Below the pieces are notes generated by a model, which ran no database searches, was not told the origin of the DNA, and saw only the letters and a list, made by a program, of their open reading frames with translations. From positions 1 to 25,494 of the IMG/VR virus record IMGVR_UViG_3300043775_000054: DNA of 25,494 nucleotides; one strand, 5' to 3'. Each line of letters begins with the position of its first letter. Position 1 is the stretch's first letter. The position numbers and the translations under genes were made by a program. The DNA comes from a virus. Below, piece by piece: positions 1 through 25,494 of the stretch.

Positions 1-2459
1 ACTGTTAAATTATCTGATGTAATCTGATTGATATTGTATTTGTTCGCCAGATCAGCAGTTGTTTGTTTTGCCGCTTCTAAAGATTTAGCTAAATCTTCAG
101 CTTGTTGTTTAGCAAGTGCTTCAGCTTCTTTTTTAGCTTTAGCCTCTGCATCAGCTTTAATTTTTGCATCTGCTACTGCTTTATCCGCTGCCGCTTTTTC
201 CTCAGCTTTAGCTTTTGCGTCAGCGTCAGCTTTAGCTTTAGCTGCATCTTTTGCGGCTTGTGCTTCTGCCGCTTTAGTATCTGCAATTGCTTTTGCTTCA
301 GCCGCTTTAGCATCAGCCGCTGCTTTCGCATCAGCTTTTACCTTTGCTTTCTCTGCCGCTTTTGCATCTGCCATTGCTTTGTCAGCAGCTAATTTCGCGT
401 CAGCCGCTGATTTATCTGCCGTAGCTTTAGCATCCGCTGCTTCTTTTGCGGCTTGTGCTTTAGCGGCTTTATCTGCGGTAGCCTTTGCTTTGGCTTCGGC
501 ATTTGCTTGTGCTTTAGCATCAGCCGCTGCTTTTATTTCAGCGGCTTTTTGTGCTGCCGCTGTTGCCGCTGCATCTTTAGCGGCTTGAATTGCTGCCGTC
601 TTAGCATCTGCTGCCGCTTTAGCCGTTGCTGCTTTAGCATCTGCTGCTGCCTTAGCGTCTGCAACCGCTTTTTCATGTGCGGCTGTTTTAGCATCAGAAT
701 CAGCTTTTAATTTAGCCTGTGCTTCAGCTTGTGCTTTTGCTATCGCATCAGATTGAGCTTTAGCTTGTGCATCAGTTTTAGCCTGTGCGTCTGCTTTTGC
801 CTGTGCATCAGCCTGTGCTTTAGCATCAATAACTTTCTGTTGCTCTGGTGTGTAAGGACCCATTTGTACGCTATTAGATGGATTAATATTGTACACAGAT
901 GCTAAATTATCTAATGTTACCGTTTGCGGTGCTTGATTAGGATTATTACTGACAGGCCCTACATTATATTTACTAGCTAAATCAGTAGTTGTTTGATTTT
1001 TTGATTCGGCATCAGCGTTTGCTTTAGCCTCTGCATCAGCTTTAGCCGCTTCTGCTTCTGCATTTGCTTTAGCGTTTGCCTCAGCTTGTGCTTTTGCAAT
1101 AGCTTCTGCATTTGCCTTTGCATTTGCCTCAGCTTGAGCGTTGGCAATAGCTTCTGCGTTAGCTTTTGCCTGTGCTTCTTCTGCGGCTTTAGCAACAGCC
1201 TCAGCATTGGCTTTTTCTTGTGCGGCTTTTGCATCAGCGACATCTTGAGCTTCTTTAGCAGCTTTTGCGGCTGCTTCGGCTGCTGGATCCACCCCACTAA
1301 TTGGTGTTGTTTCACCGTTTGTACTATTAGTTCCGAGCGTACTTTCGGTTGAGCCATCTACATTAGTTAATGTAACTTCATTGTTAACTGTACCAGTGCT
1401 ACCGCTAATTGGTGTTGTAGTACCACCTGTATCAACAGTTGTGCTTGGCGTGCCATTATCTACTGTTGTTAATGTAACTTCATTTCCTGTTGTGCCAGGT
1501 GTTCCTGTTACTGGTGTTGTTTCACCGTTTGTACCATTAGTCGTACCGGTTAATCCATTTGGATTTACATTACTATCGACTACAGTTAAGTTTACACCTC
1601 CAGTCGGTGTACCTGTTGGTGTTACATCATTAGGCACTACAGGTACTTTAGGTACAACTGTATCATTACCATTTGCGCCAGTTATCGTTGAAATAACATT
1701 TGTTACCGTAGCACCAGGATCAAGCGTTGGTTTACCTGTATTATCCACCGTTGTTAGTGTAATTCCAGATTCATCAATTGGTGTTTTAGGTACAACAGGA
1801 GTACCTGTTATAGTGTCTACAGGTGTTACACCAGTTATAGTGTCGTTACCAGTTGCACCTGTTATAGTGTCTACAGGTGTTACAGGTGGTACAACAGGTT
1901 TGTCAATTGGTGGTATTACAATCGGAGGAATGACTGTTGTATCAGAAATTGCACCGCCCGTTACGGTATCTTTAACAACAGGTTTTGTTTCTGGTGCTTT
2001 ATAATTCTGATAATTAGGATTACCTAAAACATCACCCCACCACGAACCAGTTGCATTAACTAAGTCATAACGATTCTGACCATACTTATCCATCAACGAT
2101 ACTAATTCTGGTTGCGTTGTTGTTGGATTATTTTTTAATGTTTCATTTATATTTTTAACATAATTCTCATAAGTTGGTGTGCCAACCTGTGGCACAACTC
2201 CACCACCCACTTGTGTGTTAAATGTATCGGAACGAGTAGATGGTGATTGAAACTGTGGCGCAGAATACATGTTTGTATTTTGTAAACGATTTGTGTATTC
2301 CTTTAAGTATTCTTGATACTTGGTTTGATCCGCGTCATACGCATCTTGTTGCAATGGATCAATCGTTTTTCCAGTTGGCATAGGCGTGCCGCCATATGTA
2401 TTGGTCGGATTGCTTAAACCATATTGTTTCAATAACTCATCTAATTCATAACCGTACAT
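1..2459 (-). CDS. Giant low-complexity virion protein, TolA-like Ala/Lys coil (3' end outside window)
   Basis: Starts at ATG 2459-2457, nine bases after the previous stop, with AGGGA upstream. I read the frame codon by codon to base 3 and found no stop, so at least 819 residues are present and the C-terminus is missing. Residues 1-390 are rich in Thr, Gly, Val and Pro and hold imperfect repeats of about 34-38 residues built on xLTxVD and GETTPxxG. Residues about 392-486 and 546-800 are almost pure Ala/Lys/Glu/Asp/Gln, a TolA-like helical rod. Between and after the rods sit copies of a DLAxKYN(V/I) motif (residues about 493, 517 and 803). It follows two other low-complexity proteins after the tail-hub gene, where podophages usually encode ejection proteins, so an internal or tail-associated role is inferred. 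I recognise no enzymatic domain. Confidence 0.85.
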   Translation of the reverse strand, partial: MYGYELDELLKQYGLSNPTNTYGGTPMPTGKTIDPLQQDAYDADQTKYQEYLKEYTNRLQNTNMYSAPQFQSPSTRSDTFNTQVGGGVVPQVGTPTYENYVKNINETLKNNPTTTQPELVSLMDKYGQNRYDLVNATGSWWGDVLGNPNYQNYKAPETKPVVKDTVTGGAISDTTVIPPIVIPPIDKPVVPPVTPVDTITGATGNDTITGVTPVDTITGTPVVPKTPIDESGITLTTVDNTGKPTLDPGATVTNVISTITGANGNDTVVPKVPVVPNDVTPTGTPTGGVNLTVVDSNVNPNGLTGTTNGTNGETTPVTGTPGTTGNEVTLTTVDNGTPSTTVDTGGTTTPISGSTGTVNNEVTLTNVDGSTESTLGTNSTNGETTPISGVDPAAEAAAKAAKEAQDVADAKAAQEKANAEAVAKAAEEAQAKANAEAIANAQAEANAKANAEAIAKAQAEANAKANAEAEAAKADAEAKANADAESKNQTTTDLASKYNVGPVSNNPNQAPQTVTLDNLASVYNINPSNSVQMGPYTPEQQKVIDAKAQADAQAKADAQAKTDAQAKAQSDAIAKAQAEAQAKLKADSDAKTAAHEKAVADAKAAADAKAATAKAAADAKTAAIQAAKDAAATAAAQKAAEIKAAADAKAQANAEAKAKATADKAAKAQAAKEAADAKATADKSAADAKLAADKAMADAKAAEKAKVKADAKAAADAKAAEAKAIADTKAAEAQAAKDAAKAKADADAKAKAEEKAAADKAVADAKIKADAEAKAKKEAEALAKQQAEDLAKSLEAAKQTTADLANKYNINQITSDNLT
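1285..1770 (-). repeat. Tandem ~34-38-aa coding repeats (LTxVD...GETTPxxG)
   Basis: Three to four degenerate copies follow one another inside the N-terminal half of the giant protein. The DNA is also conserved: 1301-1331 and 1511-1541 match at 29 of 31 bases, and a 17-base stretch is identical at 1366-1382 and 1468-1484 (102 bases, 34 codons apart). Each copy begins with a TLTTVD-type strand and ends with GETTP(I/V)(S/T)G. Near-identity of DNA suggests recent duplication or recombination. Confidence 0.75.
1803..1884 (-). repeat. 28-bp perfect direct repeat, 54-bp period
   Basis: Bases 1803-1830 and 1857-1884 are identical over 28 positions. The spacing is 54 bases (18 codons), so the reading frame is kept. 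The repeat encodes a VTPVDTITG-type segment of the giant protein, and a third partial VDTITG-like echo (NDTITG) lies between the two copies. Confidence 0.9.
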
Positions 2460-2468
2460 GCTATTTCC

Positions 2469-3794
2469 CTATGGTGAAGTTAAGCCTTTGACAAGTGCGG
2501 CACCACTTGCTAGTTGTTGCAATACTGATGGTGCGTAAGTTCCACCAACTGTTGTATTCTGCGTTGTAGTAGTAGTTGGAATGGTGTTAGCAGGAAGACC
2601 ACGAATTTGCGAATTCATCCAATCCAATTGATTTTTAGTGTAGTCTTGTCCTTGTTGCCATTGTTGTTGCGCTGCGGTCAGTTCAGCTTGTTTTTGTGCT
2701 TGCTGTGCTTGACCAGCCGCTTCAAGCGATGCTGCGTCAACATTTTGCATTTTTTGTTGATTACCAAGTATTGTAGTGTAATCATTTAATGCACCCATCT
2801 GACGGGTTGCATCTTGAGCTTGTGCGCCTTGAACATCTTTAGCGGCTGTCAATCCAAGTTGTTGTTGCTGGCCTGCTTGTTGCGCTTGTTGATTTGCAAT
2901 CGTAGCTAAGTTTTGTTGTTGTTGCGCTGTCAATTGACCTTGCGTCTGGCCAACATTTTGATACGCTTGTGCTTGTTGCGATGCTAACTGTCCAGCAGTT
3001 TGACCCAGTGTTGCTTGTCGCGCCAAGTCTGTTTGAGCATTTGCCATCGCTTGACTATAACCTTGGTTTGCAAGCTCAGATTGTTTTGCCAAAATAGATT
3101 CTTGTGTATCACGAAGCGCACGACTACCAAATTCACCCATGCGATTACTACCAAACTGACCGGCTTTAATAAACGAGTCAGAAACTTGCGGCAATAAATT
3201 TTCGCTTAAATTACGCGCACCTTGTTTTGCCATGACATCCATAACATTTTGCTGGTATGGATTCATGTAATTGCTTATGCCTGTATAGGCTTGCTTACCA
3301 GCAGCCGTTAAATAAGGATCTGCATTAGTTGTGATATTTCCCGCACTGGTAGCAGAACTGGTTAAATTTCCAGTACCAGCCGTTGCAGGATTAGCACCCA
3401 CAGCCGATGTCCAATTAGTATCGGCATTTTTTAATAATGATGTAGGCGTATTAGGTGATAAATAATTAGTTTGACCTGTGCTAAGACCTGTTGCAGTATT
3501 AGAATTTTGATATGCCTTCATTGCTGTAGCAGCATTCGTCAAGCCAGCATTCATTCCTGTTGGCGCATTAAAATTGGTAGAATTCTGCTGAATTTGCGAA
3601 TAGGCTTGCGTCTGATTAGGATTTAATGCCGCAATCGTTGGTAATTTATACGGCTCATAATTAACCGATGCCGCATTTCGTGCGTTTGCTATTTGATCAT
3701 AAATTGCTTGTTGCATCCATGCAGGTGTATCCGTTTTTGTGAAATCAACCGATGTTTTAGATTGCGCTGCTTGGTCTGTTAAATAAGATCCCAT
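2469..3794 (-). CDS. Gln/Ala-rich internal virion (ejection-like) protein
   Basis: 441 residues. Starts at an ATG that overlaps the previous stop (TAATG), with AGAGGAG about eight bases upstream inside the last codons of the preceding gene. The N-terminal half is Asn/Thr/Ala-rich. A central block around residues 175-255 (NPYQQNVMD, GARNLSENLLPQVSD, AGQFGSNRMGEFG, RALRDTQESIL) looks like the conserved core. Residues about 255-390 are Gln/Ala-rich and predicted helical; the tail is Thr-rich. No catalytic motif or clear TM segment is visible. Position after the tail hub and glutamine-rich helical composition suggest an internal or DNA-ejection protein analogous to P22 gp7/gp20/gp16 or T7 gp14-16. 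This is inference, not a demonstrated homology. Confidence 0.8.
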   Translation of the reverse strand: MGSYLTDQAAQSKTSVDFTKTDTPAWMQQAIYDQIANARNAASVNYEPYKLPTIAALNPNQTQAYSQIQQNSTNFNAPTGMNAGLTNAATAMKAYQNSNTATGLSTGQTNYLSPNTPTSLLKNADTNWTSAVGANPATAGTGNLTSSATSAGNITTNADPYLTAAGKQAYTGISNYMNPYQQNVMDVMAKQGARNLSENLLPQVSDSFIKAGQFGSNRMGEFGSRALRDTQESILAKQSELANQGYSQAMANAQTDLARQATLGQTAGQLASQQAQAYQNVGQTQGQLTAQQQQNLATIANQQAQQAGQQQQLGLTAAKDVQGAQAQDATRQMGALNDYTTILGNQQKMQNVDAASLEAAGQAQQAQKQAELTAAQQQWQQGQDYTKNQLDWMNSQIRGLPANTIPTTTTTQNTTVGGTYAPSVLQQLASGAALVKGLTSP

Positions 3795-5569
3795 TATCTT
3801 GCTCCTCTCATATAATCTAATGGCGATTTAGCGGCTGTACTAAATTGACCTTTTGCTAATTTTCTGCCTTTCTGTTTGCGAAGCTCGGAACGCATTTTAT
3901 CAAGTTTTGCCGCACCCGCTTTAGTTGATCCATCGCCAAGCAACGCAACTGTTTCTGCGTCAATAACGTATTCGCCATCAGAAAGTCGTGCATCTATTGT
4001 ATCATCTCTGCCAGATCCTGACCCTTGTGCTAAGTAAGCGATTTTAGATAACCCGCCTTGTGCTTTTAATACTGGCTCAGGTTGAGCAACATTGTATTTT
4101 CCACTTGATACGTCATTCCAGTTCATTGCAGTCCATGTTGCAACGTCTACGCCTTCTTTTGCGGCTTCAACTGCCATTTTATCCCAATCCCATGTGGATA
4201 ATGGCTTGCTCATGTAAATCTGTTGTTCAGTTGTTAATTTAGGCGATGTTGCAACGGCTTGTTGTATTTTATCAGATCCACCCAGCATAGACGCAGCCGC
4301 TACGCCTCCAAGTCCAAGCAACCCAATTGTTCCCCAATCCATTGACTTATCACTAGCAGGTGGTACTGAGCCAGTTGTAGGTGGTTGACCTAGTGTGTCT
4401 TTTGCTAATTGACCACCATTTTCATCAGCCGTTTTTTGTACTGCTTGATCAGATGGTGATTGATTTTTATCATAAAGACCTTTTGCAAGACCTGCCAACG
4501 CACCTGACGTAACGGCTTGTCCTGGCTCATAACCTGCGGTCAGCATGTTACCGCCAACTCGTGCGGCTGTACTTATGCCACTACCTAAGTTTGGACTGCC
4601 TTGTGCAAATTTGTTCGCTAACTGTGGACCGGCACCAGAAAGCGCACCACCAATACCACCTTGCAACGCACCCTTCATAATGTCGTCATGAGTTAATGCG
4701 CTCATACCACCGCCAATTAATGCGCCACCCGCAGCAGATGCAGCAATTGGATTTTTGATACCTATAGCACCACCAATTTCAGATCCTAACCCAGCGTTTA
4801 ATCCACCGAGAACGCCAGATTGCAATCCACCTTTTAATACATTTCCACCTGTTAACGCTGACGCGCCAGCACCTAATGCGCCAGCCGCTAATGCTGTGCC
4901 TGCAATCTGGCCTGCTTTTCCTAATCCAAAACCAGCCGCACTACCTAAATAATTACCAACTGCTGGCGCAAACACACCAATTGCCGCAGGAAGAACTGTC
5001 GAAACAATACTTTTCCAATTCCACCCAAACTCACGAAGACCTGTGCGTGGATTGATAGAACCTGATGCACCCATGTTTTTAAGCATAGCCGCTTCGCGTG
5101 GGTTGATATGCGCAAGCATCGTATCCCCACCACGACCAGCGGCTTGGATATGTTGCGCTGCACTTGCAAGACCACCTTGTGCCATTGCTTGTGGTGGTTG
5201 CATCATTGGTGGTTGTTGCATCATTCCTTGTTGCATTGGTGGTGGAGGCGACATGCCTTGATTTGGTTGTTGCTCTTTACCAGCGATACGATCTCGCAAT
5301 CCATATAATGCAATCAACAATGAAATAATAATTTGCGGATTAAATTCTGGTGGAAGCGTATCTTGATCTAACTTTCCATCCATGATCGCAGCGGCTCTGA
5401 GCTTATCGTAATGCTCTGGATGATCCACTGCGGCTTCTAAGAATTTAATCAAGCTATCAATGTCGCCAGATGAAATAGGCTGATCTGCAAACTTTTGCTC
5501 CATCTGCGTAATCGCTTGCTGATAAGCTGGGTTTCCGCGAACTAATTCTACTAATATTTGTTTATCCAT
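3794..5569 (-). CDS. Gly/Ala-rich virion protein with membrane-active-looking core
   Basis: 591 residues; the ATG overlaps the upstream stop by eight bases and has GAGGT just upstream. Residues 1-95 are helical and charged, followed by a Pro/Met/Gln-rich linker (about 100-130) and a GGLASAAQHIQAAGRGGD / HINPREAAML segment (about 132-162). Residues about 185-360 are a long Gly/Ala-rich hydrophobic stretch with small-residue packing like glycine-zipper membrane proteins. The C-terminus carries DDTIDARLSDGEYVIDAETV (about 525-545) and a basic tail. The DARLSDGE segment is one I associate with podophage tail or internal proteins. The glycine-zipper core makes a membrane-penetrating ejection protein plausible. 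Exact function unknown. Confidence 0.8.
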   Translation of the reverse strand: MDKQILVELVRGNPAYQQAITQMEQKFADQPISSGDIDSLIKFLEAAVDHPEHYDKLRAAAIMDGKLDQDTLPPEFNPQIIISLLIALYGLRDRIAGKEQQPNQGMSPPPPMQQGMMQQPPMMQPPQAMAQGGLASAAQHIQAAGRGGDTMLAHINPREAAMLKNMGASGSINPRTGLREFGWNWKSIVSTVLPAAIGVFAPAVGNYLGSAAGFGLGKAGQIAGTALAAGALGAGASALTGGNVLKGGLQSGVLGGLNAGLGSEIGGAIGIKNPIAASAAGGALIGGGMSALTHDDIMKGALQGGIGGALSGAGPQLANKFAQGSPNLGSGISTAARVGGNMLTAGYEPGQAVTSGALAGLAKGLYDKNQSPSDQAVQKTADENGGQLAKDTLGQPPTTGSVPPASDKSMDWGTIGLLGLGGVAAASMLGGSDKIQQAVATSPKLTTEQQIYMSKPLSTWDWDKMAVEAAKEGVDVATWTAMNWNDVSSGKYNVAQPEPVLKAQGGLSKIAYLAQGSGSGRDDTIDARLSDGEYVIDAETVALLGDGSTKAGAAKLDKMRSELRKQKGRKLAKGQFSTAAKSPLDYMRGAR

Positions 5570-9810: not shown

Positions 9811-10164
9811 TTAACCATTCCAGCGAGCAATCTTACCATCACGAACATCAATATGGGTAAAAGAATTGTAGCGTCCAAGACCTTTGCATTCGTCATCAAA
9901 ATGTTTCATGAGATATTCTTGCACTTCTTTTGGCGGTACGTCTTTTACTTTAATGTCGGCTGCGTTGCCAAGAACGTGTTGACTATGCTTTGCACCACCC
10001 ACTTTTGTGTTGTGCGCTTCACATCTTCTACCGCTCATAATGGTAATCGGTTTACCAAACGACTCACGGATGCGGTTAAGTAGCTCTACGAGCTTAGGGT
10101 TAACGTCTTTTTCACCACACCCGCAGTGACACTCAAATTCTTCTGGCTTAAAATATTTGCTCAT
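9811..10164 (-). CDS. Endolysin: M15A-family zinc D-Ala-D-Ala-type peptidase
   Basis: 117 residues from the ATG at 10164, chosen over an upstream start at 10194 because AGAAGG lies at a good distance and homologues begin with a KYFxxxEF.C.CGCG pattern, seen here as FKPEEFECHCGCG. The peptidase motif SQHVLGNAAD gives zinc ligands H63 and D70 (H-x6-D), and H104 in FTHIDVR is the third; D106 is nearby. SGRRCEAHN precedes the motif as in M15A enzymes. The enzyme would cut peptide cross-links or stem peptides of peptidoglycan. There is no signal peptide, so release through a holin is expected; candidate holin genes lie on both sides. Confidence 0.9.
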   Translation of the reverse strand: MSKYFKPEEFECHCGCGEKDVNPKLVELLNRIRESFGKPITIMSGRRCEAHNTKVGGAKHSQHVLGNAADIKVKDVPPKEVQEYLMKHFDDECKGLGRYNSFTHIDVRDGKIARWNG

Positions 10165-10165
10165 A

Positions 10166-10354
10166 TTATTTACCTTCTGATGCAAACAACCCAATCATAC
10201 CAAACACGACACTAGCGGCAGTTAAGCTGTCATGGATAGGACCTGCATCAATATTCATACCAGCCATTGTAGCTAAAGCCGCCACACTCGCGTGAGTTGA
10301 AGGTTCTTTTAGTCGAGCCGTTAAATAGTTCCACGCTTTAAGTAATTTGTTCAT
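10166..10354 (-). CDS. Small holin-like membrane protein
   Basis: 62 residues from the ATG at 10354; this start has a perfect GGAGGT seven bases upstream, better than the possible start at 10366. It overlaps the previous gene by 17 bases and ends one base before the chosen peptidase start. The N-terminus is basic (NKLLKAWNYLTARLK), followed by two weakly hydrophobic stretches (SVAALATMAGMNI and SLTAASVVFGMIGLFA) separated by a short polar turn. Position directly upstream of the endolysin makes a holin role likely. A different small phage protein remains possible because the hydrophobicity is modest. Confidence 0.65.
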   Translation of the reverse strand: MNKLLKAWNYLTARLKEPSTHASVAALATMAGMNIDAGPIHDSLTAASVVFGMIGLFASEGK

Positions 10355-10580
10355 TGCTACCTCCAATAATTGCAGTTGAAGTATCTCTATCTATTTTCAT
10401 AAAGCCGTTGCAAGCAATATTCCAATCGTCGCCGTCAGTTTCGTCCCAAATAGGCACACTAATATTTAAATGTTTAAATAGAAATTCTTTGTCGTTTTCA
10501 AACACGCGCCAAACATGATCTAAGCTGCCTCGTCCTTCTTGCCCACGACTTTTGTTAAATCGTATTAAATACTTGTTCAT
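10338..10580 (-). CDS. Conserved-looking 80-aa phage protein of unknown function
   Basis: The ATG overlaps the oxygenase stop as ATGA, with no strong ribosome site, suggesting coupled translation. The sequence starts MNKYLIRFNKSRGQEGRGS, continues with HVWRVFENDKEFLFKHLNI and contains an acidic WDETDGDDWNIACNG loop. It is soluble-looking, with no TM segment. The compact, aromatic-rich sequence looks like a real folded protein. I cannot assign a function; adjacency to the oxygenase and lysis genes is the only clue. Confidence 0.75.
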   Translation of the reverse strand: MNKYLIRFNKSRGQEGRGSLDHVWRVFENDKEFLFKHLNISVPIWDETDGDDWNIACNGFMKIDRDTSTAIIGGSNEQIT

Positions 10581-11242
10581 ATAATTTCAGCCGCTGGCAT
10601 AGTGCAAGTAGCTTGTTCTGCTTGTTGTACTGTCAAATTAAAATGCACAAACTTAATAGGGTTGTCAGATGCATGGCGTGTAAAAGAATGTGGCATCCAC
10701 GCATTAGAAAAAATCATAAGTCCAGGTTTAGCTTCAAAGTTAATCATTTTACTAGCCGGTGTCGCTATATTCATATCTTGTTCTGGTAAATCTAATTGAA
10801 CTTTACCTGCTCGTGGATCATGAAATACTACCCGTGAACTATTCTCTGGAACTTCTAAAAAATAAAACCCTACTATTTGTGAACCAAAGCCATGAATGTG
10901 TTGTTCCATTGAAGAATGTTTATGGTGTTCTTGTGTCCACATTTCAGCAAACGATACAACTTTACCATCCATTGCATAGCCTTGCTCTTTCAATATGTTC
11001 CATGCAGTTTCGCCAACAAAACTCGCAAAGTTTTCCATGCGTAAGTCAGCATAATAATTGCCACTCATTACAACAGGATAAATCTCATTTAAACTTTGCT
11101 CTTTTCGTGCCGACTCCAAATATTCTTCAGAAACTTCTTTGACAGCTTCTAGGAAATCTGGACGCTCAATTAAATACATTGAGCATGGGAAGTGGTAAGC
11201 CACTTCCAGTTGCGTGTTTAACTTCGTGGCGTTTGTAGCCAT
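10577..11242 (-). CDS. 2OG-Fe(II) oxygenase-like protein
   Basis: 221 residues, ATG preceded by GGAGAAGG. The core (residues about 105-205) has the jelly-roll order of phage 2-oxoglutarate/Fe(II) dioxygenases: HIHGFGSQIVGFYFLEVP (H115, H117), VVFHDPRAG (D142), KPGLMIFSNAWMPHSF (H185) and a final IKFVHFNLTV strand. H115/H117, D142 and H185 are candidate iron ligands; the 2-oxoglutarate-binding basic residue is not certain. Such enzymes are common in aquatic tailed phages, often near tail genes, and usually lack a known substrate; hydroxylation of a virion or host protein is a guess. The family call is fairly secure, the substrate unknown. Confidence 0.8.
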   Translation of the reverse strand: MATNATKLNTQLEVAYHFPCSMYLIERPDFLEAVKEVSEEYLESARKEQSLNEIYPVVMSGNYYADLRMENFASFVGETAWNILKEQGYAMDGKVVSFAEMWTQEHHKHSSMEQHIHGFGSQIVGFYFLEVPENSSRVVFHDPRAGKVQLDLPEQDMNIATPASKMINFEAKPGLMIFSNAWMPHSFTRHASDNPIKFVHFNLTVQQAEQATCTMPAAEII

Positions 11243-16929: not shown

Positions 16930-16959
16930 ATTATAATTGAATAGTCGGTGTAAAATCTA
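16930..16959 (-). promoter_or_regulatory. Weak candidate promoter before the neck gene
   Basis: A perfect TATAAT (16935-16930) with TAGATT (16959-16954) 18 bases upstream, and an A/T run further up. The -35 matches only three of six and overlaps the stop codon of the preceding gene. It lies in an 84-base gap, one of few in the operon. Confidence 0.35.
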
Positions 16960-17511
16960 TTTTTTCTTCATTGCTCTGCGACCTTCAGACAATGCAATCG
17001 CTAACGCTTGCTTTGAATTAGTCACGTCCGGTCCTTTTTTACTTCCAGAATGCAAATCGCCATCTTTAAACTCGTTCATCACTTTGCCAACTTTAGCTTC
17101 TGAAATTTTACCGCCATTTTTCATGGCAATTAAAGGCGACTTCGATGCCACAGGAACTGACTTGCGAACAGGAATTTTTCCTTTCATCATTTCCTTGCGT
17201 TGCTCGCGTGGTGATTCACGTTTCTCATGTTGCATCATTGCTTTTTTGCTGGCGTACTTTTCACCAGTAGCTTTTTCAACTACCTTTCCGCCTTCTGCTT
17301 TGCACATTTTAGGAGCTACTTTGCCACCTTTTGCTTTGCACATAGTAGATGATGATGCTTTCTTAGCGGTGCCACCTTCTTTGTAGCCACCACATGATCC
17401 ACCCATTGCTTTTTTAACTGTGCCGCCTTCTTTATATCCACACGCACCGCCTTTGCTGTAATGCATTTGCGGTCCAAACTCAAACTCACCGTATTTTAAT
17501 GTTGCGCCCAT
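16957..17511 (-). CDS. Lys/Gly/Cys-rich basic protein with DUF6496-like C-terminus
   Basis: 184 residues, AGAGGA upstream of ATG. Strongly basic. The first 80 residues hold paired repeats: YKEGGT (26-31 and 43-48) and MCKAxGGKV (57-65 and 69-77), with cysteines at 24, 40, 58 and 70. The C-terminus (residues about 140-180: GKVMNEFKDGDLHSGSKKG, then VTNSKQALAIALSEGRRA) matches the DUF6496 pattern in which a Lys-rich stretch leads into SKQAxAIALSEGR. Positive charge suggests binding DNA or acidic virion proteins inside the capsid, but no function is established. Four Cys in a GG/K context may bind metal. Confidence 0.75.
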   Translation of the reverse strand: MGATLKYGEFEFGPQMHYSKGGACGYKEGGTVKKAMGGSCGGYKEGGTAKKASSSTMCKAKGGKVAPKMCKAEGGKVVEKATGEKYASKKAMMQHEKRESPREQRKEMMKGKIPVRKSVPVASKSPLIAMKNGGKISEAKVGKVMNEFKDGDLHSGSKKGPDVTNSKQALAIALSEGRRAMKKK

Positions 17512-18436: not shown

Positions 18437-18539
18437 TTTGATTCCTCACATGAAAGGTTTTACTATGCAGTCTTCATGTCGTCTGTCTGGTCAGTCGTGC
18501 ATAGCGTTAAAGGTTTCCAGATGATATTAGTCTATCATA

Positions 18540-19346
18540 TCATTCATAATACTTAAAAATATATCCAGCTAAACGTCCACGTTGTATTGGCTTTTCAGAT
18601 AATAATGCGCGTCGCAATGTTGGCATTTGTATTTGATAATGTTCAAGCGTTTTTGTAAGACTAGAAAAAATAATATTGTCGTTTACGCAAATTACTTTTT
18701 TTGACATTTTTTCTTTGCTTTCTTGTGTGTGTGTTTTCCCTTGCCAATGACTGTAGTGGCCAGCCTTCGATGCTGCTCTTATTTTAGCCATGCCTTCTGG
18801 TGATACTTTTCTTCCTTTGCCTTTTGGCTTTCCACGTTGCGTGTCACCTATTTTTTTGCGCGTTTCCTCTGATACTGCTTTACCGTAGCGATAGTGTTTT
18901 TCACCAGCGCATACGCCTTTGTGATATTCGGAGCTTCGTTGTATTTCTTCTTTTGTAAACTTGTATCCTTTTCTTGGATGATTGTTATTCTTAAACCATG
19001 CTTTAGATTTTTCAGATAAATGCGCACGCATTTCTGGTGTGGCATTTCGCATAGGGGAGTCTGCATTAGGCGACACATTATAAAAATAACTTTGTTTAAA
19101 ATGGTTATCTAACCATTTTTGTTCTGCTGGATATAATTCACTGCGATCATTTAATTGCTCGACTATTTCAAACTTAAAACAATCTTCGCCATACTTGTTC
19201 CACGCACGTTGCAAATGAATACAGTCATGAGTTCCATTTCTTAAATGCTTTCTATGCTCCCAAAACCGTTTTCTTGAATCAACCGTGCTACCAATATAAT
19301 AATGATTGTTTAAAATATTTCTAATTTTGTAAATTACGTTTTTCAT
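18540..19346 (-). CDS. GIY-YIG homing endonuclease (free-standing)
   Basis: 268 residues from the ATG at 19346, chosen over 19400 because a perfect AGGAGG sits five bases upstream and the GIY-YIG domain begins at residue 4 (VIYKI, then YYIGST at 16-21). Catalytic candidates are R25/R27 and E75 (PAEQKWLD), with N90. Residues about 105-215 carry NUMOD3-like basic repeats (EETRKKIGDTQRGKPKGK, TQESKEKMSKK). The C-terminus (SLTKTLEHYQIQMPTLRRAL, 229-248) resembles the NUMOD1/HTH-type DNA-binding end of such enzymes. It cuts DNA to spread its own gene. The upstream capsid gene is intact, so this is probably a free-standing element, not an intron gene. Confidence 0.9.
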   Translation of the reverse strand: MKNVIYKIRNILNNHYYIGSTVDSRKRFWEHRKHLRNGTHDCIHLQRAWNKYGEDCFKFEIVEQLNDRSELYPAEQKWLDNHFKQSYFYNVSPNADSPMRNATPEMRAHLSEKSKAWFKNNNHPRKGYKFTKEEIQRSSEYHKGVCAGEKHYRYGKAVSEETRKKIGDTQRGKPKGKGRKVSPEGMAKIRAASKAGHYSHWQGKTHTQESKEKMSKKVICVNDNIIFSSLTKTLEHYQIQMPTLRRALLSEKPIQRGRLAGYIFKYYE

Positions 19347-19371
19347 AATGCCTCCTGTTAAATGTATTGTT

Positions 19372-19400
19372 ATAATACTACAGAAGGAACACTGTATCAA
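19372..19400 (-). promoter_or_regulatory. Strong candidate sigma70 promoter before the endonuclease
   Basis: TTGATA (19400-19395) and TATTAT (19377-19372) with an ideal 17-base spacer; each hexamer matches consensus at five of six. It lies just after the capsid terminator and 25 bases before the endonuclease ATG. With no terminator seen behind the endonuclease, it may also feed the virion genes from 18436 on. Confidence 0.65.
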
Positions 19401-19430
19401 TAAGCAAAAGAAAACCCGCTTTTGCGGGTT
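19401..19430 (-). terminator. Rho-independent terminator after the major capsid gene
   Basis: Seven-bp GC-rich stem AACCCGC / GCGGGTT around an AAAA loop (19430-19413), followed on the minus strand by TTCTTTTGCTT. It begins about 35 bases after the capsid stop. A terminator here would let capsid transcripts end on their own, separating them from the following block. Confidence 0.8.
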
Positions 19431-19465
19431 CTCATTTTTAACTTAAGTGTTTGATTTATAAGGGA

Positions 19466-22537: not shown

Positions 22538-22945
22538 TCAGATGAATGCTTTAATTTTTAAAGGATCAGTTAACACTTTGCCAATAATATCCAAGTCGTT
22601 GAATATTACAAACATTGCGGATTCGTTATTATTTACCGGCACTTCGTATCGATCACCACCATACTTAGCTACACGCACAAAATCACCTACCTGACACCAA
22701 TCGCCTTCAGGCCATGACTCTAATGTGGTTCGGTTCTTAAAAGCCACCGGACCTATCGACACAACTCTTGCCACCTGTGTGTTCCACTTCTCAGTATCTT
22801 TTGTGTCGGTACTTAAAATAATGCCGCCAGCCGATGTACTTTTTGGAGTACGAATCTGAACCAGAACGCGGCTCCCAAAAGGCTGGATGCCTGCTTCTAC
22901 AGCAGGGAAAGCCTCAGCTAAAGCATTCTCATAAATCGTTGTCAC
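22538..22945 (-). CDS. Phage GroES-like co-chaperonin (Cpn10)
   Basis: 135 residues from a GTG at 22945 with GAGGA about eight bases upstream; a TTG at 22963 is the only longer start and lacks a ribosome site. The domain begins near residue 19: IQPFGSRVLVQIRTPKS, then the mobile loop TSAGGIIL, as in GroES (SAGGIVL), then VARVVSIGP, EGDWCQVGDFVRVAKYGGD and an end MFVIFNDLDIIGKV. Such proteins cap host GroEL and, in T4 gp31 or RB49 CocO, help fold the coat protein. It overlaps the preceding gene by 17 bases. Compared with bacterial GroES (about 97 aa) it has an N-terminal extension of 18 residues and a longer roof loop. Confidence 0.9.
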   Translation of the reverse strand: MTTIYENALAEAFPAVEAGIQPFGSRVLVQIRTPKSTSAGGIILSTDTKDTEKWNTQVARVVSIGPVAFKNRTTLESWPEGDWCQVGDFVRVAKYGGDRYEVPVNNNESAMFVIFNDLDIIGKVLTDPLKIKAFI

Positions 22946-23126
22946 GATATTTTTCCTCGTCAATTAAAGTTAAGAGTACGTTGATGGCAGCTTCATAACC
23001 TGCTACCACACCAGTGCGATGCCCATACTCAAAAGCATCGCGCTGTACTGGTTGCTTTAAAGAGTCAACGCTGTATCTAAGCTGTGACTCTTTAAGGCGA
23101 TTGAGTAATTTTGACTCAATGTTCAT
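22929..23126 (-). CDS. 65-aa unknown protein
   Basis: ATG overlaps the stop of the 44-aa gene (ATGA). Sequence is mostly helical and charged: ESKLLNRLKESQLRYSVDSL, then FEYGHRTGVVAGYEAAINVL and an acidic end. The YGHRTGxxAGYExAI segment looks like a conserved turn-helix. Overlaps the GroES-like gene. No named family recognised; a small phage assembly factor is possible. Confidence 0.7.
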   Translation of the reverse strand: MNIESKLLNRLKESQLRYSVDSLKQPVQRDAFEYGHRTGVVAGYEAAINVLLTLIDEEKYRDNDL

Positions 23127-23269: not shown

Positions 23270-25494
23270 TTAAGGATTAGGATTGATTCCAGTGCCAGTG
23301 CTGACACCAAACTTTTCACCGCTTATGATCTCAGCTTGCGCAAGTCGCATCGCTGTTTCGTTGTCAGCAGCGTTCATACGCTCTCTTGCCTGCATTTCAG
23401 CAGCAGAGCGTTGATTTTCTACCTGCGCTTTAAATGCAACTTGCTTCGCATCTGCCATCTCACGTTGTGCATCACGTTGCATCTCCATCATGTTTTCTTG
23501 AGCAGCTAATTGAAGTTTTGCTTTTTCAAGTTCTTGTGATTGTTGCATTCTGGCTTGATCAGTTTGTTGTGACTGTTGCAATTTAGCTTGTTCAATTTGC
23601 AATTTAGCCTGATCAGATTGCGCACGTTGTTGCATCGCAGCTTGTTGTGTTTGCGCGTTGAGCTGTGCAACTTGCATGGTGTTATCGGGTGGCAATTGTG
23701 GTTGTGGTTTGTACTGCTGTGCTTCTTGCGTAATCGTTGCAAGCTCTTGACCAAACCCATCTAATTGTTGCTCGATAAATTGTTGCACTTTCATCATCAA
23801 GCTAACTTGCTCAGATACATCATTGCCAATCACATCATCTTTTTCTGCCTTAGATGCTGCTTTGTGTGATTCGGTTAAGTAATAGTTCAATAGATGATCA
23901 CGCAAGTGAAGTGAAATAGGATAAAGATAGTTCGTAATGATAGCAGGATTTTTGCCAAACAACGGTGATTGCAAAAATGCCATGTGCGTCATCAAGTGAC
24001 CTAGATGATCTTGTTTGGGTAGCACATAGATTGGTCTTCCCATTGACGCTGCAACATTTTCGGAAATAGGATCCATATCCTCTTTTCCGGGTTCGGGTTG
24101 CAAGTAATCATCAGCCGATAACTTCATGACCGTTAAGAACGCTTCCTCAACTTTGCGTTGATTGTACATCTGCGGGAACAATTGCGAGCGTTGCAGAATG
24201 GCTTGGTTTTGTGCAAAGCGTTGCGTTTCACTAAAGATGGCAGGATCACTAACTGGGATAATGTCCATCGGACCATCAAAGTCTGACGGATCAATTTCAA
24301 GTCCAGCCTCGTATGCTTTCAAGTCTTCAACTGTTAAGTACGCAGAGTTGATGCGATGCAATACCTTTAGCACGCGATCCATTGAGTTATGCAAACGCGC
24401 ATGAATCGAACTGAATACCACCATACCTTGTTCAATCAACGCCATTGTTGTACCAACTGGCTGATTAGGATTCTGATCCGATAGCTTCTCAAACGATGTT
24501 TGAATCACACCTTTGCCAGCCTCCACTAGGAATCCAAGCAATTGAAACAGTACAGGTGATGGACCGTTAAATGGCAGTGGCATAGCAATCTTGCGCACGT
24601 CATCAACCATTGCGCCACCATCAAGCTCAACAACTTCTGTTGGTTGCACGTTGATAGTCTGACCGTTAGGACCGCCTTTGAGCTTTAGTAGCGTTGGCAC
24701 GTTTTGAATGTGCGCTGAATCAAGCAATGCACGAAGCGCACCAGTAGCCGCACCTGACAAACCACCAATCATTTGTGTCAAACTGATTGGATACGCCCCA
24801 CGCCAAGGAACAAAAGGAAACTCAATGATCCAGTCTAGCTCTTTTCTGTTTTCATCGTCCGGCTCCCAGTTTCTGTAGAGTGCAACGCCTTCGCTGGTTG
24901 TTTTGTCGATGCTTAAGATATATGGCTCCATGCCATCGCCAAAGTCTAAATATGTGTAGACTTCAAAAATGGTGCGAAGTCCATCCTCGTTGTAGCTGCT
25001 TTCCTTTCTGCCTTCAATCTTGTCGTTGGCTTGTGATGATTTGCTATACTCAGGATCACTTGCGTAACCTAAGTCAACGTCGATGTACATGCCAGCTTTA
25101 ACGCGACGCGCATATTCCATCTTGGTGATGTATTGCACATGTGTCTTACGCTCTGCCGTATAAAAGTTGGTTGCAGCGAACGGCAGGTAAACGTCTTCAA
25201 TAGCGATAAACTCCGCTTGTGGTCGCTTGTACTGGTTGTTCCACATTAACTTGAGATATTGACCACCACCCAGTGGCAATTGCGTACTAAGCTGCTCTAG
25301 CTCACCTCTGAACTCTGGCATCTGCTCAGTTAGCTGCCAATTCATAAAGTCTGCTTTGCGTTGCGCTTTTGCAAGTTTTTCTTTTTCCTGCTCGCCTAGT
25401 ATCTTTGTTTTGACAGGACCGTTAGCTGGGAAGATCTCTTTCATCACACGCGCAGAAAAATCCACGCATGCTTCAACCAGCATTGGATGTACTA
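23270..25494 (-). CDS. Portal protein (5' end outside window)
   Basis: The frame stays open through the right edge, so the start is missing; the first in-window ATG (25483) is internal. At least 740 residues. HPMLVEACVDFSARVMKEIF near the visible start, YLKLMWNNQYKRPQAEFIAI, VYLPFAATNFYTAERKTHVQ and a wing/stem region (GMVVFSSIHARLHNSMDRVL, GTTMALIEQG) look like the body of a podophage portal, the twelvefold ring through which DNA enters and leaves. The last 170 residues (about 570-737) are Gln/Ala-rich coiled coil (QQAAMQQRAQSDQAKLQIEQ), a barrel-like extension seen in many podophage portals. Genes for scaffold and capsid follow. Confidence 0.85.
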   Translation of the reverse strand, partial: VHPMLVEACVDFSARVMKEIFPANGPVKTKILGEQEKEKLAKAQRKADFMNWQLTEQMPEFRGELEQLSTQLPLGGGQYLKLMWNNQYKRPQAEFIAIEDVYLPFAATNFYTAERKTHVQYITKMEYARRVKAGMYIDVDLGYASDPEYSKSSQANDKIEGRKESSYNEDGLRTIFEVYTYLDFGDGMEPYILSIDKTTSEGVALYRNWEPDDENRKELDWIIEFPFVPWRGAYPISLTQMIGGLSGAATGALRALLDSAHIQNVPTLLKLKGGPNGQTINVQPTEVVELDGGAMVDDVRKIAMPLPFNGPSPVLFQLLGFLVEAGKGVIQTSFEKLSDQNPNQPVGTTMALIEQGMVVFSSIHARLHNSMDRVLKVLHRINSAYLTVEDLKAYEAGLEIDPSDFDGPMDIIPVSDPAIFSETQRFAQNQAILQRSQLFPQMYNQRKVEEAFLTVMKLSADDYLQPEPGKEDMDPISENVAASMGRPIYVLPKQDHLGHLMTHMAFLQSPLFGKNPAIITNYLYPISLHLRDHLLNYYLTESHKAASKAEKDDVIGNDVSEQVSLMMKVQQFIEQQLDGFGQELATITQEAQQYKPQPQLPPDNTMQVAQLNAQTQQAAMQQRAQSDQAKLQIEQAKLQQSQQTDQARMQQSQELEKAKLQLAAQENMMEMQRDAQREMADAKQVAFKAQVENQRSAAEMQARERMNAADNETAMRLAQAEIISGEKFGVSTGTGINPNP

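Follow-up and report, generated by a model that had tools for sequence, protein, structure and literature searches.

The window analysed here is a linear stretch of 25,494 bp that makes up the entire IMG/VR record IMGVR_UViG_3300043775_000054. At its left edge, a minus-strand frame opens with an ATG at position 2459 and runs through 819 codons to the window edge with zero stops (ORF 2459 to 3), as noted in the first-pass annotation; the plus-strand shadow ORFs opposite this giant gene are up to 207 aa in length (28..588 and 1381..2004). Edge ORFs of this type would be reported by gene callers that accept partial genes at contig ends. As the window is the whole record, truncation of the gene is due to the end of the contig. 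The missing half of the gene was found on IMGVR_UViG_3300043775_000956 (28,455 bp), a contig that surfaced in a search for relatives of the C-terminal region of the giant. The first 127 bases of the window (1..127) are identical, on the reverse strand, to the start of this record and the last 127 bases (25368..25494) are identical, also on the reverse strand, to its other end. Each overlap measures exactly 127 bp rather than 128, as expected of an assembly k-mer junction. The usual largest k-mer of metaSPAdes is 127, and these exact overlaps make the two records look adjacent in the assembly graph. Joining them produces a 53,695-bp circle, near in size to the relative that bears locus L003 (53,253 bp). 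A frameshift or stop just beyond base 1 had been envisaged as grounds for dismissing the gene; neither is present and the joined ORF is open for 5,625 nt up to one terminal stop, specifying 1,874 aa (194 kDa). The window (3..2459, minus strand) encodes the first 819 residues, or front 44%, of this protein while the gene continues on bases 128-3293 of IMGVR_UViG_3300043775_000956 (read as L029/L034). A strain chimera at the contig join is conceivable, but complete, uninterrupted single-ORF orthologues occur in L002 (1,981 aa), L003 (2,059 aa), L004 (1,842 aa) and L119 (1,818 aa from its ATG). The giant is a real protein of 1,874 residues.

A modular make-up, of Thr/Gly repeats and then long Ala/Lys rods interrupted by an LAxxYN segment, had been described from the window and was borne out by composition. 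All modules lie on the minus strand. The N-terminal domain (residues 1-155; 1995..2459) opens with the signature GYELxxLxxQYGhxxP and is homologous to the N-termini of a family of proteins described below. This is followed by a low-complexity Pro/Val/Thr/Gly stretch (residues 156-392; 1284..1994), Ala/Lys rod 1 (residues 393-488, 49% Ala; 996..1283), a linker with two LAxxYN motifs (residues 493 and 518) and the sequence GPYTPEQQ (837..995), Ala/Lys rod 2 (residues 542-799, with 257 residues between linkers as in L002; 63..836) and the start of a second linker with a further LAxxYN motif at residue 803 (3..62). The remainder of the second linker, rod 3 (residues 842-1066) and the C-terminal region are located on the partner contig. 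The equivalent of the stretch at residues 156-392 has an RTX-repeat match in L002 (44 bits) and collagen-like Gly-Ser-Thr repeats in L003 (41 bits), both of which pass the Pfam cut-off, whereas neither RTX nonapeptides nor GXY repeats above this cut-off were found in the giant of the window, suggesting that these matches are allele-specific and possibly compositional. Pfam and PHROGs searches of the giant gave no usable family, with no ejection family among the matches; Pfam detected no enzymatic domain, and no receptor-binding or trimerisation domain was found. HTH-like and Sel_put Pfam matches fell below the cut-off and were rejected. Searches of 50,697 phage records by tblastn with the N-domain and the C-terminal region returned zero matches. 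Relatives of the C-terminal region were found inside the clade only, and its AlphaFold model, with a pLDDT of 37, was set aside.

The genes of the circle are ordered as terminase small and large subunits, a 1,749-aa polyvalent protein, portal, head genes, tail and structural genes, a 591-aa Gly-rich protein, E1, the giant, B and C; beyond C, genes are mostly on the opposite strand. E1 (441 aa; 2469..3794, minus strand) lies directly upstream of the giant and is a DNA ejection protein homologue (phrog_4287, E 5.8e-10). The Gly-rich protein lies upstream of E1 (3794..5569, minus strand), an order conserved in relatives. In most other relatives E1 is 291-584 aa in length as compared to an expanded 1,153 aa in L014 (L014:6510-9971). 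Downstream of the giant are B (410 aa) and then C (556 aa). The L002 copy of C is 32% identical over 488 aa to gp063c of Caulobacter phage RLK (E 1.6e-70), and the L003 and L004 copies, which resemble C of the window lineage, match the same protein with E 6e-41 and 2e-44. A transglycosylase SLT domain is borne by RLK gp063c (E 2e-17) but is absent from C of the window lineage. Position in the cassette was judged from the family label of E1 and the transglycosylase-bearing homologue of C; on these grounds the giant sits within a single cassette between a gp14-like and a gp16-like gene. In relatives, the giant gene is co-directional with the ejection-cassette genes and tightly packed among them. 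Judged by homology and gene order, E1-giant-B-C is a podovirus-type ejection cassette. The L002 copy of B weakly matches phrog_2534, annotated as 'released from the phage upon host infection' (E 2.7e-4), a family matched by only 1 of 44 members of the slot-2 group (i.e. proteins encoded by the second gene of this cassette); B of the window matches only PHROGs of unknown function.

An uncultured-phage slot-2 'X' family was defined in this analysis from relatives of the window. At least 177 E1 relatives are present in IMG/VR, and slot 2 was surveyed in the best 80 of these plus earlier loci. In more than 50 relatives outside the clade of the giant, slot 2 is usually occupied by one protein of 430-1,348 aa, which usually begins with MG[YF]EL[ND]xLMxQYGVxTP. 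An alignment of 44 slot-2 proteins exhibited the N-terminal consensus, a variable middle, the element AxGGxVKxxYxxGG and a conserved helical C-domain. The giant carries both N-terminal features of the family (i.e. GYELxxLMxQYGVxTP and DQxxYxxYxxxYxxRLxxxPMY), and a profile comparison of its N-domain with the slot-2 N-termini of L011 and L014 gave an hhalign probability of 96% (E 1.5e-9) as compared to ≤2% for 30 column-shuffled controls. Profile searching for homologues, proposed in the first-pass annotation, thus linked the N-domain to the slot-2 proteins of many relatives. The AxGGxV...GG element was found in the giant at residues 1854-1872; this pattern is present in 19 of 57 relatives and is absent from the end of the L003 orthologue. 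The helical C-domain is not in the giant polypeptide and resides in the separate ORF B, making the giant one half of a split slot-2 'X' member.

Several observations locate this split. Matches to B were found in the C-terminal part of over 40 slot-2 proteins. The giant ends with AKGGAVSKEIDRLYKKYGGAV and a stop, encompassing the GG element; B begins with MANIEDLAENYGV, containing an LAENYGV motif; and the stop of the giant and the start of B overlap as TAATG. In L071 and L113, the sequence AKGG[AS]VKTHFQTGGANQxxDIDQMAENYGV, which spans the end of the giant and the start of B, lies within a single ORF. As B matches the slot-2 C-domain and the junction is carried in one ORF by L071 and L113, the homologies indicate that the slot-2 gene is split at the GG element in this clade into giant and B. 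A second split was observed in L093, with products of 455 and 517 aa that both have the N-terminal motif. Among approximately 60 non-redundant slot-2 proteins, only those of the clade of the giant exceed 1,348 aa and only these contain Ala/Lys rods or a long Ser-X rod, whilst Gly/Thr-rich stretches are present in other slot-2 members too. One slot-2 protein (L075:10197-14240) has a 100-residue stretch that is 94% Thr/Gly at residue ~175, approximately where the low-complexity insert of the giant begins. An AlphaFold model of a slot-2 protein was good only for the C-domain, which was predicted to be all-helical with pLDDT mostly of 75-94. A Foldseek search with this model reached no better than E 0.32 in the PDB, short of the E 0.001 threshold, and its BFVD matches were mostly to phage proteins that are uncharacterised. 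The slot-2 profile had no credible PDB profile match, and tblastn of a compact member against 50,697 phage records returned zero matches.

The rods of the clade differ in chemistry. Ala/Lys rods occur in the window and L002, and a Ser-X rod is found in L003, L004 and L119, with its start in L006. The A+K content of the rods reaches 77% per 100 residues as compared to ≤40% in other slot-2 proteins. Rod 2 has 257 residues and rod 3 has 225 in both the window and L002, but this match is weak evidence of constraint because rod 2 of the two is ~95% identical in DNA. The Ser-X rod is exactly 559 residues in L003, L004 and L119, a length kept across ~87% protein identity. The Gly/Ser/Thr region just before the rod is highly variable in length. 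In the L003 rod, 167 of 177 serines are on one parity and both serine codon families are used (112 TCN and 65 AGY), a pattern indicative of protein-level selection and not of slippage in the DNA. The Ala/Lys rods had been described as a TolA-like coil. No significant 3.5-3.7-residue (heptad/hendecad) periodicity was detected in rods 2 and 3: Ala exhibited a clear and significant 2-residue period in rod 2 and no peak above the shuffle threshold in rod 3. A canonical coiled coil is unsupported and this reading was rejected on periodicity, although the rods may be helical. A literature search on Ser-X repeats in phage virions gave nothing relevant.

Long rods rich in Ala, Lys, Asp and Glu form domain II of TolA and resemble the rods of the giant, but this likeness is in composition only, as there was no match in sequence searches and the giant lies in a phage ejection cassette. 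Similarly, the (Ser-X)n rod of the sister phages resembles serine-rich repeat (SRR) bacterial adhesins in repeat pattern only and no membership is claimed. Families of gp15-like ejection proteins diverge beyond detection. No sequence or fold match of the slot-2 family to T7 gp15, P22 gp20 or N4 gp52 was obtained with PDB profiles or by Foldseek at E < 0.001, such that homology to these proteins is positional only. In podoviruses the ejection genes form a cluster of three, of which the second evolves rapidly and is recognised from its size and synteny (PMC8954989). The giant is comparable to T7 gp15, P22/CUS-3 gp20, Sf6 gp12 and epsilon15 gp12 as the second gene of a three-gene ejection cassette, and the slot-2 family shares with podovirus slot-2 ejection proteins a helical character, fast evolution and large variation in size. 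Differences are the split into two genes, the low-complexity rods and a length of 1,818-2,059 aa in the clade of the giant versus 431-982 aa (PMC8954989). The 62-kb Caulobacter phages RLK, RW, GB2A and KcrB have the same E1-X-C order in their cassette (gp065c-gp064c-gp063c) as the window, with 43% identity over 149 aa for E1 and a homologous C. Their slot 2 is, however, a single 435-aa protein without rods and their C has the SLT transglycosylase, unlike that of the window lineage. The slot-2 profile failed to recover RLK gp064c, which gave only one blastp match, to the L014 slot-2 protein (E 3e-4). N4 (Schitoviridae) sets a precedent, in that it ejects a giant beads-on-a-string vRNAP, gp50, alongside the ejection proteins gp51 and gp52 (PMC12633501); the giant of the window differs from gp50 in having no RNA polymerase domain and no detected homology.

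The 'folded-looking LAxxYN segment' noted within the rods consists in fact of repeated short motifs that resemble the slot-2 N-terminal signature, most of which are then followed by a GPYTPEQQK linker. The pattern [DE][LIM][AL]xx[YN][NGSDH][VIL] was found eight times in the 17,576-residue proteome (four in the giant, two in B, one at the start of the polyvalent protein and one elsewhere) as compared to 0.24 expected in shuffles (maximum 3), a count that is descriptive and not an unbiased test, as the giant, B and the opening of the polyvalent protein had been viewed before the pattern was written. Two observations played no part in writing the pattern: the family-wide slot-2 N-terminal signature resembles the motif, and the polyvalent proteins of two further clade phages keep MADLKDLAEQYGV with divergent sequence after it. 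The protein at the polyvalent position in L014 is without the motif. The polyvalent protein itself (1,749 aa; IMGVR_UViG_3300043775_000956 22735-27984, L035:9736-14985) is encoded between terminase and portal; its match to ADP-ribosyltransferase is weak, and it contains five copies of the repeat [YW]AxGGxV. For polyvalent proteins as a class, packaging and injection have been predicted (PMC5512222). It is possible, albeit doubtful at present, that LAxxYG/N acts as a virion-loading tag at the start of slot-2 proteins, B and the polyvalent protein, with the repeats docking the rod of the giant at several capsid points; if so, the motif would be a transferable signal by which phage proteins are packaged for injection. 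A literature search for a known protein-loading motif gave nothing relevant. A 184-aa Lys/Gly-rich protein of the window (16957-17511) has a repeated AxGGxV like that of the polyvalent and slot-2 proteins.

The giant is probably the front half of a DNA-ejection protein that occupies slot 2 (i.e. the position of T7 gp15 and P22 gp20) in a podovirus-like, uncultured phage of ~53.7 kb, with a split at the GG element and a middle expanded into rods. Full length, family membership, synteny, the split and conservation of rod lengths were determined by computation; from the synteny and homology we infer a virion location with storage in the head, ejection as an extended chain and a role, shared with B and C, in a channel through the envelope. 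The split leaves the N-domain, the middle and a C-terminal region that is specific to the clade and closes with the GG element in the giant, and the helical C-domain in B; the middle is expanded into Ala/Lys rods or, in sister phages, into the fixed-length Ser-X rod. The giant may be stored in the capsid, held by docking of the repeated LAxxYN motifs, and exit via the portal as a stretched-out chain of rods and motifs that precedes or accompanies the DNA. In concert with B and C, it could help to build or line a passage across the periplasm; the periplasm-spanning role suggested in the first-pass annotation is plausible in the light of analogous T7 gp15 and N4 gp52. That annotation had also offered an internal or a tail-needle-like component. 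The location of the gene in the ejection cassette and the homology of the N-domain to slot-2 proteins argue for the former while the tail needle is unsupported. Its view that the make-up is unusual for an ejection protein holds for the rods only, as the protein belongs to a family that occupies slot 2.

An unlikely alternative has the giant as packaged cargo or an effector, co-ejected with the DNA but outside the channel, leaving B with the structural role of slot 2. B alone carries the helical C-domain conserved across slot-2 proteins, some relatives manage with a slot-2 protein of ~430 aa, and the motif at the start of the giant also opens the polyvalent protein with its weak ADP-ribosyltransferase match, a member of a class for which packaging and injection are predicted (PMC5512222). 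The lack of a detected enzymatic domain in the giant argues against cargo, as do its N-domain, which is the conserved slot-2 N-domain, and the conservation of rod lengths, which a structural component would be expected to show. Collagen-like and RTX-like repeats in orthologues, Ser-X repeats reminiscent of surface stalks and a modular exchange between strains that resembles adhesion proteins could denote a tail needle, fibre or other external virion rod, but a gene positioned between E1 and B/C, an N-domain and GG element belonging to the slot-2 family and the failure to find receptor-binding or trimerisation domains make this reading distinctly improbable. There is very little likelihood that the giant is a non-virion protein, such as a regulatory or scaffold-like late protein: its virion location is inferred and an Ala/Lys/Glu-rich helical character occurs in scaffolds, but in relatives the gene is co-directional with, and tightly packed between, ejection-cassette genes and a motif is common to the giant and the putatively packaged polyvalent protein. 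Location in the cassette and kinship with slot-2 proteins indicate that the giant is most likely carried within the particle of a freshwater short-tailed phage and delivered into the host along with the DNA. What is new is the form of an otherwise ordinary, known kind of phage ejection protein: it is unusually large, filled with rods and split in two. Of the components of short-tailed phages, the ejection proteins count among the most poorly understood. Natural slot-2 diversity runs from a lone protein of 430 aa to a two-gene arrangement that includes a rod protein of 1,874 aa, in two rod chemistries, and offers a means of probing what the middle region contributes through its length and chemistry. 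Sharing of the short motif suggests a simple and testable tag for the loading of proteins into phage heads.

Among bacterial bins, the nearest match (E1 88% identical) is L119, a phage contig of 54.6 kb assigned to a Methylomonas MAG. This is a possible hint at the host, although the contig may be a mis-binned phage. Elsewhere in the window are genes for a probable endolysin (Peptidase M15; 9811-10194), a 2OG-Fe(II) oxygenase family protein (10577-11242) and a GroES-like co-chaperonin (Cpn10, E 2e-9; 22538-22963). Just downstream of the major head protein gene, a ~1-kb stretch (18484-19465) contains a GIY-YIG/NUMOD3 homing endonuclease (18540-19400); two relatives with 93-97% identity to both flanks lack this stretch.
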